From: Acidobacteriota bacterium
GTDB taxonomy: Bacteria; Acidobacteriota; Terriglobia; Bryobacterales; Bryobacteraceae
Length of the DNA: 64,000 bases
NCBI GenBank assembly: GCA_029776225.1
Contig: JAKOTR010000029.1
Location: forward strand, 62,001-126,000
Direction: 5' to 3'
Positions 22,863 through 26,316 of the stretch are shown piece by piece. A program made the translations under genes and the position numbers. Position 1 is the first letter of the stretch; every line of letters begins with the position of its first letter. The notes under the pieces were generated by a model, which searched no databases, was not told the DNA's origin, and saw only the letters and a list, made by a program, of their open reading frames with translations.

Positions 22863-23627
22863 TCAGCCCGATTTCGGCAGGCCGAACTCGATTCCCCGCT
22901 CGCGATTGAGCACCTGCGATCGCGATTCGTCAACCTGGCTTACAGGGACTTCCCCACGGTTCCCTTGCCTGTCTACGTAATTCAAGGTCCCGTTATCCAC
23001 CCAGTAAGCCGCCGCGTCAATCACCGAACCGTCGCGCATCGCAATCGAAAAGTACACCATCTTCTGCGGAGTCGCGACGTTCGAGGAGCTGCCCCAACGG
23101 TACTCGTTGATGACGACAGAGGGCGAGCTGGTTTCCTCCTGTTGCTGTTGCGCCGGTTCGTAGTAATCCGTCGGCGCTGCCGAAGGATAAATCACCGTCA
23201 CGTTCGGACCCGCGTAGGGGTACGCTCCGTCATAACCGCCGTAGTAGCCGCCGTAAGCCGGGTAAGGCCACACCGGCACGCCCCAGAAGCCGCCGAACCG
23301 GCGGAAGCCAAACCGGAACCCGCCAAAGGGCGTGAAGAACGGTTTATTGAAGAAGAACGAGCCGTGGAAACGCGGAGAGAAGAACGGGCTCTTGTTAAAG
23401 AAAAACGTTCGCGGCGCGACGAATCCGCGGAATCCCGGCCTGAAATGCCCGAACCCGCCGAAACCGCCTCGGAAACCGTGTCCGAATCCGCCCCCTCTAA
23501 AACCGTGCCCGAAGCCCCCTCTGAAGCCGTGTCCGAAACCGCCCCGCATCCCAAAGCCGCCGCGCTGCCCAAAGGCGCTGATCGACAGAATGGAAACGAG
23601 GCATAAAAGCCGGACCAGCGTTTTCAT
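22863..23627 (-). CDS. Secreted Gly/Phe/Arg-rich protein
   Basis: 254 residues. Signal peptide MKTLVRLLCLVSILSISAFG, then a strongly repetitive GGFGHGFR region (about 22-60), further Phe/Gly-rich stretches and Tyr/Gly repeats (YGGYYGGYDGAYPY). The C-terminal domain of about 80 residues (YFSIAMRDGSVIDAAAYWVDNG) looks folded and ends in a charged tail. The start at 23627 has GAGGAAAAAGGT before it. Composition suggests an envelope or extracellular structural protein; no function can be assigned. Confidence 0.7.
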   Translation of the reverse strand: MKTLVRLLCLVSILSISAFGQRGGFGMRGGFGHGFRGGFGHGFRGGGFGHGFRGGFGGFGHFRPGFRGFVAPRTFFFNKSPFFSPRFHGSFFFNKPFFTPFGGFRFGFRRFGGFWGVPVWPYPAYGGYYGGYDGAYPYAGPNVTVIYPSAAPTDYYEPAQQQQEETSSPSVVINEYRWGSSSNVATPQKMVYFSIAMRDGSVIDAAAYWVDNGTLNYVDRQGNRGEVPVSQVDESRSQVLNRERGIEFGLPKSG

Positions 23628-23760
23628 ACCTTTTTCCTCATCCGCCAGCCTAACGCCGCGGGCCGCCGTTTTCAACGCCGTTCCAGCCGCCAAAGTCCCG
23701 GTACGGGGCTGAAAAAGTACCAGTGAGAATCCCGCACCCTGCTCAGGCACTTCTCTTTGT

Positions 23761-25260
23761 ATGGGAAAACCTGCGGATGCCGCCGCCGCGCATGCCGCCA
23801 TCCTTCGCTTCCTGGAGCGCGGCGGCGAACCGGCGCTGCTCGAGCCCGGCGAAGAACAGTTCACCCTCAAGCCCGACAACTACAAGCTCGACTGGCGCAA
23901 CGGCCGCCTCACGATTCAGGTCTGGGACGAGCGGCGCGTCCTGGCGCGGCGGATCGTCGGAATCGCCGAGGAGCGTGCCGGAAAGCTCGAGCTCGCCATC
24001 GAGCGTTTCGGCAAACGGCCGGGGCGCATTTACATCTTAGAAACGAAGCAGGCGCGGACCTCGGTCGAGCGCCTCGGCGCCCGGCTCATCCTGAGGGAGC
24101 GGTTCCGGCGGTCGCTCTCGCGGCAGTTCCCGGACTGGCAAATCGCCGAACTGAGCGCCGAAGCCAACCTGGAGGAGAGCCTCTCGCCCTCCTATCCGCG
24201 CGCGCTGCTCAAGAGGGGATCGACGGGCATCGCCGCCATCGCCGCGCCGTCCGAACCGGGAGCCGCCGCAGCGTGCCTCACCTTCGGTCTCATCTGGCTC
24301 GATTACCTGCGGCGCCGCGAGCGGCGGTTGACCCTCCAGAGCCTCGCCCTGTTTCTACCGGAGTCCGGCGCGCGCGCCGCCTGCCACCGCCTGCCCTTCC
24401 TCGACCCCAAAGCGGTTCGGGTGCAGGCGTACGCGTGTTCCGAAGAGGGCTTTGAAGAGTGGATCGACCCGCGCGATTACGGCAACCTCGACACCCGCCT
24501 GGAGCCCTGCGCGGCGCCCCTGGAAACCTTGCCCTCCCGCGTGGCGGGCTGGGTGGAACACCTGCGCAGCCTGCCCGGTGTGGATGCGGTGCGGAGGCCC
24601 GACGGCGCTTTGAGTCTCCGCGTTCGCGGCCTCGAATTCGCCCGCACCGCCCACGGCGAACTGCTGTTCGGCCTGCGGAAGCGGGCTGCCGCCACGGAGG
24701 CGAACCTCGCGGAAATCGAGCAGCTCGCCCGGGAGATCGAGCGGCTGCGATCGCCCTCCGCGCCGGACCGCGAAAACCCTCTCTACCAGCAGCAGCCCGA
24801 GGCGTGGCTCGAAGCGCAGGTCCGCGCCCAACTGGAGCAGATAGACGCCACGCTTCAGCCCGATCAAGTGTACGCACAGGCGCCAACGCTCTCCGGCGGC
24901 GACCGCGGCATCATCGACCTGCTCGCAGCGGACCGCGACGGCCGCCTGGCGGTGCTCGAATTGAAAGCTTCCGAGGACATTCACCTCCCGCTTCAAGCTC
25001 TCGACTACTGGATCCGCGTCGTCTGGCATCTCGAGCGCGGCGAGTTCACGCAGTACGGTTACTTCCCAGGGCGCGTGCTCGCACGCAAGTGGCCCCGGCT
25101 CCTGCTGGTGGCCCCCGCGCTGTGTTTCCATCCCAAAACGGAAACGATTCTGCGGTTCTTCGCCCCCGAAATCGAAGTGGAGCGGGTCGGCCTGGGCGCG
25201 GACTGGCGCCGCTCGCTAAAGGTGATGTTTCGCCTTCGCGGCGCCGATCGCCCCGCGTGA
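23761..25260 (+). CDS. Protein with C-terminal PD-(D/E)XK (NucS/DUF91-like) nuclease domain
   Basis: 499 residues. The first 330 residues match nothing I recognise. The C-terminal part has the arrangement of NucS/EndoMS-type restriction-fold nucleases: a Glu-bearing helix (PEAWLEAQVRAQL, about 350), then GDRGIIDLLAADRDGRLAV and LELKASEDIHLPLQALDYW. These give the catalytic Asp and the Glu-x-Lys pair, followed by a helix rich in Leu/Gln. It likely acts on DNA or RNA. Monocistronic, with no ribosome site of note before the ATG. Confidence 0.6.
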   Translation: MGKPADAAAAHAAILRFLERGGEPALLEPGEEQFTLKPDNYKLDWRNGRLTIQVWDERRVLARRIVGIAEERAGKLELAIERFGKRPGRIYILETKQARTSVERLGARLILRERFRRSLSRQFPDWQIAELSAEANLEESLSPSYPRALLKRGSTGIAAIAAPSEPGAAAACLTFGLIWLDYLRRRERRLTLQSLALFLPESGARAACHRLPFLDPKAVRVQAYACSEEGFEEWIDPRDYGNLDTRLEPCAAPLETLPSRVAGWVEHLRSLPGVDAVRRPDGALSLRVRGLEFARTAHGELLFGLRKRAAATEANLAEIEQLAREIERLRSPSAPDRENPLYQQQPEAWLEAQVRAQLEQIDATLQPDQVYAQAPTLSGGDRGIIDLLAADRDGRLAVLELKASEDIHLPLQALDYWIRVVWHLERGEFTQYGYFPGRVLARKWPRLLLVAPALCFHPKTETILRFFAPEIEVERVGLGADWRRSLKVMFRLRGADRPA

Positions 25261-25273
25261 GCCAATTTGGCCC

Positions 25274-25383
25274 GTTCCGTCCGGCTCGCAGCGCCGGAGT
25301 AGAATGGCAGCCGAAACGATCCGCCGCACGTGTGAAGAAGCGGAGAGTTCCGTCCCGCTCGCAGCACCGGAGTAGAATGACAG
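25274..25383. repeat. Two 37-bp direct repeats, 73-bp period
   Basis: Copies at 25274-25310 and 25347-25383 agree at 34 of 37 positions; both contain CCGGAGTAGAATG. They fill the 159-bp gap between the nuclease-like gene and the next hypothetical gene. TAGAAT resembles a -10 box in each copy, but no -35 accompanies it. Confidence 0.75.
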
Positions 25384-25419
25384 AGGGGCGCAGCGGGTCT
25401 GATTGCCCGCAAATCGGAC

Positions 25420-26316
25420 ATGAACAGTGATATTTATCCGCAAATCAAGCAGGCATTTCGGCATTTAAACCCGCAGGAGGTCCGGGAACTCGCCGAACGG
25501 CCGGTGACTATCGGCCTGATTGCCTCCGGCAATGCCGGCTTTGTGCAGATGGAGGATGTGCTGATTCCGCGAGGTGTCACGCGCGCCAGGCGGGCCGAAC
25601 TCGAGTCGCTGGTGCACCGCGTGGGCGCGCCCGGCGCACCCGAGACCTTCGATATCATCCTCTGCGAGGACGAGCTGCTCTGCCCTCCGGGCGCATTTTG
25701 CTTTCATGCGTCCGATTTTCGGCGCACGGCACGCGAAATTTTGGCGGCGCGTCCCGATCTTGAACTCCCGCTGGCCCGTAATTTCGAGCCTTTCCGGCAG
25801 CCCGCCATCGCCCGGATCGTTCGCGGCATCGCGCTGGAAAACGCGGCGTTCGCCCTGGTCACGGCCTTTCCCGGAATGTTGTCCGGCGCCGTGCGGTTCC
25901 CGTTCTCGGTAAAAGACTTTGCGTCCGAAGCCGCGTTTATGACCGTCAACCAGGTGCGCATGGCCTTTCTGATCGCCGCGGCGAGCGACGAGGACGTCGG
26001 CTACTACGAACAGCGGGTGCAGATCGCCGCTATTGTGGGCGGCGCGCTGGGCTGGCGTGCTGCGGCCCGGGCGCTGGAAGCCAGAATTCCTTACGGCGGC
26101 GGAGTGATCCCCAAAGCCCTGGTTGCGTGGGCCGGCACCTGGACAGTCGGCGTGGGACTCGAACGCTTTTACCGCATCGGCGCCGGCCTCACCCGCGCGG
26201 AGCGCCGGGAGATTTTCGCCCGCGCCATGGCGCGCGGCCGTGAAATCGTGGCCGGGCTCGTGGAACTCTGGAATTCCGGCTCACAACGCAACGCTGAAGC
26301 CGCCCTGGCCATCTAA
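25420..26316 (+). CDS. DUF697-like membrane-associated protein, function unknown
   Basis: 298 residues. The N-terminal 140 residues are of unknown type. From about residue 170 the sequence (NQVRMAFLIAAASDEDVGYY ... VGGALGWRAAARALEARIP ... WAGTWTVGVGLERFYRIG) resembles DUF697, a hydrophobic domain usually attached to GTPases such as YcjF. No P-loop is present here. It is followed 23 bp later by an exported protein, so the two may be one transcript. Assigned by resemblance only. Confidence 0.55.
   Translation: MNSDIYPQIKQAFRHLNPQEVRELAERPVTIGLIASGNAGFVQMEDVLIPRGVTRARRAELESLVHRVGAPGAPETFDIILCEDELLCPPGAFCFHASDFRRTAREILAARPDLELPLARNFEPFRQPAIARIVRGIALENAAFALVTAFPGMLSGAVRFPFSVKDFASEAAFMTVNQVRMAFLIAAASDEDVGYYEQRVQIAAIVGGALGWRAAARALEARIPYGGGVIPKALVAWAGTWTVGVGLERFYRIGAGLTRAERREIFARAMARGREIVAGLVELWNSGSQRNAEAALAI

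Follow-up and report, generated by a model that had tools for sequence, protein, structure and literature searches.

Organization of the locus

The open reading frame at positions 23761–25260 (forward strand) of the window, the whole 64,000-nucleotide stretch of DNA analyzed here, is a real gene. It starts with ATG, encodes a protein of 499 amino acids with a predicted tandem restriction endonuclease-like (REase-like) fold, and has relatives in other genomes of the phylum. From the N terminus, the protein consists of a helix followed by a small beta-barrel (residues 1–97; 23761–24051), a predicted degenerate REase-like core, or pseudo-nuclease (residues 98–245; 24052–24495), a small alpha/beta linker domain (residues 246–338; 24496–24774), and a PD-(D/E)XK nuclease domain that is probably active (residues 339–499; 24775–25257), all encoded on the forward strand. 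No promoter- or terminator-like sites were found within 23550–25500.

The upstream gene (approximately 22863–23627) points away from the nuclease gene. Its product is rich in glycine and phenylalanine, has a signal-peptide-like start, and belongs to no Pfam family. When 79 loci were compared, no window ORF upstream of the nuclease gene recurred in two or more of them.

The downstream gene (25420–26316, forward strand) begins 159 bases after the nuclease gene, encodes a protein of 298 amino acids, and is a frequent partner of the nuclease gene in Bryobacterales. Among the best 80 of 535 relatives, 74 loci have more than 900 bases of downstream sequence, and 59 of these carry a counterpart on the same strand, no more than 1.5 kb downstream. 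The downstream frame touches the end of the nuclease gene or starts within 69 bases of it in 57 of the 59. Of 53 further loci, three have a counterpart, each of them belonging to family f1, and it was found in 0 of 49 loci outside f1, some of which have little flanking sequence. The gene had been described as standing alone, which fits its upstream side, where the neighbor is divergent, and does not fit its downstream side. Many positions are conserved in the C-terminal half of the 25420–26316 protein. No Pfam family scored above its cut-off in the window copy or in six relatives, and the window copy matched no PDB chain at E ≤ 1. An assignment to DUF697/YcjF was considered, found no support, and was dropped.

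Between the two genes, a 26-base repeat occurs twice (25285–25310 and 25358–25383), the copies being 73 bases apart. With up to two mismatches allowed, its 21-base core was found nowhere else in the genome assembly.

Further neighbors in the window encode an MBL/beta-CASP protein, a NifU-like protein, a glycine-zipper protein, a DsbA-like protein, and a short-chain dehydrogenase. In six loci of other lineages, ten conserved neighbors, chosen from fifteen that had been located, were annotated: SelB, TldD/PmbA, a thiolase, a response regulator, a histidine kinase, CutA, a GDSL lipase, an amidohydrolase, and two ABC transporters. No defence gene is present among these ten or among seven neighbors in the window.

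The C-terminal nuclease domain

A PD-(D/E)XK signature is present in the last ~155 residues, in the order that the preliminary description had read from this end of the protein (a glutamate helix, an aspartate, and Glu-x-Lys). One helix carries E347, W349, and E351, and D386, E400-L-K402, and Q412...Y416 follow. Its conservation places the signature beyond chance. Conservation was assessed in 151 non-redundant sequences, including that of the window, which remained from 186 after rows with more than 90% identity were removed. The helix glutamate E347 (24799–24801), the presumed metal-binding aspartate D386 (24916–24918), and both E400 and K402 of the ExK motif (24958–24966) are identical in 151/151, as are Q412 and Y416 of the following helix (Q412-A-L-D-Y416; 24994–25008), P452, and W482. 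The second helix glutamate, E351 (24811–24813), is kept in 148/151. A 36-row alignment reaches down to 20% identity with the window protein. The nuclease tail is the best conserved part, with a mean identity to the window protein of 55%; the corresponding values are 39% (first core), 36% (linker), and 33% (barrel).

The full-length protein was modeled with AlphaFold2 from a 72-row alignment (pLDDT 92.2, pTM 0.83). In this model, the C-terminal core is formed by helix 346–356, strands 385–391 and 396–401, helix 409–425, strand 446–452, helix 460–464, and strand 473–478. The domain has the D...(D/E)xK pattern and the helix glutamate by which the PD-(D/E)XK superfamily is recognized, with the pattern lying on strands 385–391 and 396–401. 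In VIA searches with the full model, the C-terminal half aligned with Can2 (8bao; Z 7.5, rmsd 3.5, 119 residues aligned, over 244–490), and the tail aligned with the Shedu nuclease SduA (8ps5; Z 6.6, rmsd 3.7, 129 residues aligned, over 344–499). The Z scores of the tail itself are 6.3–7.5, and as a Z below 8 would not decide alone, the REase fold was called together with the invariant motif. The restriction-like core expected of such a nuclease is therefore present in the structure prediction. Taken together, these results support a PD-(D/E)XK nuclease domain with a complete active site in the C-terminal ~155 residues, and because the active site is invariant, the domain likely has nuclease activity. 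A likeness to Shedu SduA was seen in the REase domain (Z 6.3–6.6); the window protein matched no Shedu model in Pfam, and its N-terminal part appears to differ.

No Pfam or NCBIfam model reached its curated cut-off on the window protein. The preliminary description had placed the tail in the NucS/DUF91 group, and local similarity to NucS was indeed found at the motif. The NCBIfam NucS model NF003270 matched residues 382–405 (E 0.0068) and touched 17 of 36 diverse members that were scanned (best E 1.6e-4). Membership in the group did not hold: the window protein scored 15.5 bits against a cut-off of 216 for NF003270 and 12.8 bits (E 0.12) against a cut-off of 24 for Pfam PF01939 (NucS_C), and assignment to NucS was rejected because both curated cut-offs were missed. 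The genome itself has no PF01939 match at E ≤ 0.001. PF01939 matches are present in 33 of 199 genomes of the phylum, and the places listed for them include no copy of the present family from the profile search of 396 genomes described below. According to a 2017 survey (PMC5290159), NucS or NucS-like proteins occur in no bacteria except Actinobacteria and Deinococcus-Thermus.

Other library matches were weak. A Pfam scan of the 36 diverse members gave NucS_C in two and MmcB-like in two, and TIGR01784 (Rpn family nuclease, NCBIfam) touched 10 of the 36 (best E 2.4e-4). In PHROGs, where the rows were weak throughout, an endonuclease family was matched by the window protein at E 0.013 and by 2/36 members. 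A PDB search with a profile of 20 members placed NucS at the top (E 0.13, over the motif), followed by eleven further rows at E 0.32–2.2 with no clear relative, and a BFVD search gave no match at E ≤ 0.001. The protein is a member of the PD-(D/E)XK superfamily and belongs to no curated family found in the libraries searched. A search of the open-library literature returned no publication recognized as describing it.

The N-terminal half and its predicted fold

The front region had been described as matching nothing known. The AlphaFold2 model instead predicts an REase-like core without catalytic residues. In the VIA search with the full model, the majority of nuclease rows aligned to residues 98–243 and not to the tail. 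The best matches of this stretch are EndoMS (5gkj; Z 9.0, rmsd 2.9, 105 residues aligned) and PaqCI (8em1; Z 9.0, rmsd 3.3, 116 residues aligned), followed by further REase-fold rows, including NucS (2vld; Z 7.7), the BspD6I nickase (Z 7.6), HamA (Z 7.1), XisH (Z 7.0), and EcoT38I (Z 7.0). When the front half was folded alone (pLDDT 89.3, pTM 0.67), the top rows were unchanged, with PaqCI at Z 8.9 and EndoMS at Z 8.8. Eleven of the first 15 rows are then nucleases by title (PaqCI, EndoMS/NucS, both BspD6I subunits, and EcoT38I, several rows being one protein), and two are XisH, which we take to have an REase fold. According to the tool's note, Z 7 to 8 is usual for models without a clear match, and Z ~9 is slightly above this. 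In the Foldseek search with the front half, EndoMS likewise took first place (probability 0.94, E 1.4e-3), followed by Pelota rows in second and third.

The elements of the predicted N-terminal core are helix 99–122, strands 147–152 and 155–161, helix 168–186, strand 191–200, helix 201–208, and strand 220–226. In the model, their order parallels that of the C-terminal core element by element. By strand order, R147-A148 stands at the place of D386 in the tail, and A158-A-I-A stands at the place of the ExK strand. The D...[DE]x[KQR] pattern is present in 151/151 tails and in 0/151 N-terminal cores, and no row of the 151 has [DE]xK within 155–163. Other positions of this core are well kept, with R147 found in 139/151 and W179 in 143/151. 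The first core therefore lacks the D...ExK residues in the sequences compared, and residues ~98–245 are predicted to form a second REase-like core on the basis of the model.

In a different reading, the front half adopts another alpha/beta fold, which resembles an REase in arrangement only, and the nuclease is joined to an N-terminal region unrelated to it. On residues ~98–243, acetyl-CoA carboxylase rows score up to Z 6.8, and a carboxylase chain ranks first in the Foldseek search with the whole model (rmsd 20.7). The REase matches themselves are moderate, with Z ~9 and rmsd 2.9–3.3 over 105–119 residues, and the two cores have no sequence likeness. Internal duplication was searched for at the sequence level and rejected: when the N- and C-terminal halves, and likewise the two cores, were taken from alignments of 72, 20, and 151 rows and compared with hhalign, the probabilities were 0.2–1.0% and the E values 0.05–0.34. 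The two cores resemble each other only in predicted structure, so a common origin is not supported, and the dead core is itself a structural prediction. Against the other-fold reading, nucleases and XisH dominate the top rows of the half folded alone, and the helix and strand order follows that of the C-terminal core. We consider this reading quite unlikely. A protein with an REase-like core at each of these two places would be a previously unnamed variant of a known superfamily, as predicted from the model.

The long helix at residues 99–122 of the dead core (24055–24126), a helix in the AlphaFold2 model, carries a net charge of +6 in the window protein and +4.2 on average in the family (n=149). 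It is a candidate DNA contact. Over its whole length, the dead core is just slightly basic, with a mean charge of +2.8. The barrel, with predicted strands between residues 24 and 94, has weak fold matches (YojF 1njh, Z 5.6; 3na2, Z 5.2).

The similarity to NucS/EndoMS extends to both halves of the protein. Like these enzymes, the window protein has a C-terminal PD-(D/E)XK domain with the aspartate and ExK, and EndoMS, together with PaqCI, heads the structural matches of the front core, with EndoMS at Z 8.8–9.0. The protein might accordingly be a homodimeric double-strand endonuclease of the NucS/EndoMS kind, in which the paired chains would make a double-strand cut with their two C-terminal cores where DNA is mismatched or branched, and the front half would recognize DNA and pair the chains. 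In the NucS dimer as described in PMC8228993, the N-terminal domains take the flipped-out mismatch and the two C-terminal domains cut. The Foldseek alignment of the front half, which runs through both EndoMS domains, and the local NucS matches around the ExK motif agree with a homodimer of this type. The same Foldseek alignment, with 251 columns, has an rmsd of 19.9, and therefore the placing of the domains is unlike that in EndoMS. NucS/EndoMS enzymes have an N-terminal half-closed beta-barrel for DNA binding and dimerization; in the window protein a small barrel precedes the dead core, and VIA aligned the REase part only. Unlike NucS/EndoMS, the window protein is twice as long, contains two REase-like cores in the model, the first of them dead, and misses the curated NucS cut-offs. 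Its C-terminus (...MFRLRGADRPA) is without a clamp-binding motif, which in actinobacterial NucS is given as [E/K][L/Y][T/R]LF (PMC8228993). The genome contains three MutS-type matches and one MutL match, and therefore the protein is not a stand-in for missing mismatch repair. A NucS/EndoMS-like homodimer thus appears unlikely, given the missed cut-offs, the doubled length, the absent clamp motif, the mismatch repair genes, and the poor superposition.

The closest parallel in overall plan is Can1. In Can1 (PMC6981274), one chain combines a nuclease and a nuclease-like domain and nicks supercoiled DNA, and activity is lost when two basic residues in the nuclease-like domain are reversed. The window protein shares this combination of domains in one chain, here by prediction. 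Unlike Can1, which has two CARF domains and is activated by cA4, no CARF domain is listed by Pfam in the window protein, and no CRISPR gene is present among the ten annotated neighbors. The Can2, Card1, and Cap4 rows in the fold list align to the REase stretches. The front core also resembles XisH (2inb, 2okf), with a Foldseek probability of 0.98–0.99 and Z 7.2–7.3 for the half alone. Unlike XisH, a single domain of ~130 residues, the core in the window protein is joined to a barrel and an apparently active nuclease.

Distribution, inheritance, and proposed function

The gene is present in 47 of 61 near genomes, its own included. In a profile search, 137 of 396 Acidobacteriota genomes matched, and 21 of the 137 are weak motif-only matches (E 1.6e-10 to 2.1e-4). 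Strong matches (E ≤ 1.5e-44) were obtained in 116 of 396 genomes, including incomplete ones in G326 (tail only) and in G411, G278, and G374 (in pieces). A search with the single sequence matched 89 of 297 genomes of the phylum. Each of the 61 near genomes, where all candidates were scored, has at most one copy; where a genome gave two rows, these are fragments on one contig, or on two contigs in G013. The phylum-wide searches scored the best five or three candidates per genome, so a second, weaker copy could be missed there. Some copies are short or interrupted: L154 (G326:C13) retains the tail only, the copy on G411:C1 is in two pieces, and those on G123:C86 and G216:C1 have one stop inside the match. 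In genus g37 of the same order, the gene is absent from 11/11 genomes, which is a lineage loss and not strain-to-strain patchiness.

A tree of 97 rows was used to compare the gene with host taxonomy. The 22 family groups require 21 changes, the minimum, compared with 60.4 in shuffles, and every listed family with two or more rows forms one side of a branch, with low branch support for f59 (19), f3 (75), and f1 (89). This is the pattern that vertical inheritance gives. Searches of plasmids, phages, and viral contigs gave no match; the scan of genome contigs covered the best 80 of 535 confirmed relatives. One contig, CALQCC020000016.1 (L108), is titled Bordetella parapertussis and carries a Bryobacteraceae-type copy; the title looks like that of a mislabelled metagenome bin.

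The distribution bears on whether the protein is an anti-phage or anti-plasmid defence nuclease, as had been suggested. REase folds are common in defence, and the nuclease domain scores against the PADLOC candidate family PDC-S11, with similar residues around the ExK motif (window E 2e-5, residues 384–416; the model PDLC04916 touches 20/20 members at E ≤ 1, best 3e-7). This match is limited to ~35–40 residues around the motif. Five other acidobacterial proteins, obtained as PF01939 (NucS_C) matches from genomes of the phylum, all match PDC-S11 better (E 9e-18 to 7e-140), and two of them (L204 and L207) do so over nearly their full length (E 7e-140 and 4.7e-129). These acidobacterial PDC-S11 proteins are ~350–385 amino acids long, and in four of the five the nuclease is N-terminal, unlike in the window protein, in which it is C-terminal; a full-length match with an N-terminal nuclease is not found in the window protein. 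Nor does its distribution show the patchiness and mobility expected of a defence system. Defence is disfavored by the vertical inheritance of the gene, its single copy in the near genomes, the ordinary nature of its ten annotated neighbors, and the lack of matches in the plasmid, phage, and viral contig collections. We judge this function highly improbable.

The distribution would fit RNA processing as well. An RNA-processing nuclease would cut structured RNA with its active core and use the beta-barrel as an RNA-binding part. Can2 and Card1 rows align to the C-terminal half (Can2 8bao, Z 7.5), and the title of PMC7969007 calls Can2 a dual-specificity nuclease. The top fold and motif matches are DNA enzymes, which argues against this function, and RNA processing seems very unlikely.

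The reading that we prefer, and hold with about even confidence, is that the protein is an acidobacterial DNA nuclease, presumably dependent on metal, which is inherited vertically, has two REase-like cores per chain, one of them dead, and would act by nicking in genome maintenance. The active site is conserved, its counterpart is lost in the first core, and the gene is vertically inherited in single copy; the two-core architecture is predicted from the model. Vertical inheritance and a single copy suggest a part in genome maintenance. With one cutting site per chain, the simplest mechanism is single-strand cleavage. In the proposed mechanism, the N-terminal core (~98–245) and the preceding barrel would hold or shape DNA, with the basic helix 99–122 as the candidate contact. 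The C-terminal core (~339–499) would then cut one strand of structured or damaged DNA, leaving a nick. The division of labor would be as in Can1, minus the CARF switch. A repair or recombination role is suggested, and a repair or other DNA-processing nuclease would be the best class of function. Two further points stand against this reading: a homodimer would carry two active sites, and the gene can be lost, as in g37.

XPF-ERCC1 and MUS81-EME1 are live/dead nuclease pairs of eukaryotic repair. A more specific form of the preferred reading, which we put forward only as a tentative possibility, is that the live and dead cores form an intramolecular pair, a bacterial counterpart in plan to these complexes, in which the dead core and barrel would read the site and one strand of the branched or damaged DNA would be nicked there. 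If this is true, Acidobacteriota would have their own structure-reading nickase, and the pairing of live and dead cores known from eukaryotic repair and from Can1 would be present within one bacterial chain. The window protein passes no Pfam or NCBIfam cut-off and the PHROGs rows are weak, yet the gene tracks the families of its hosts through much of a major soil phylum, and its site is invariant in 151 sequences. A nuclease motif in an uncharacterized gene need not signal defence.

The architecture varies in a few relatives. The linker is absent or nearly so in 3/151 (L174, L182, and L183), and the barrel is short in 3/151, for which the chosen start may be at fault. Two relatives, L186 and L187, are ~630 amino acids long, and L186 has long insertions between the linker and the nuclease tail.
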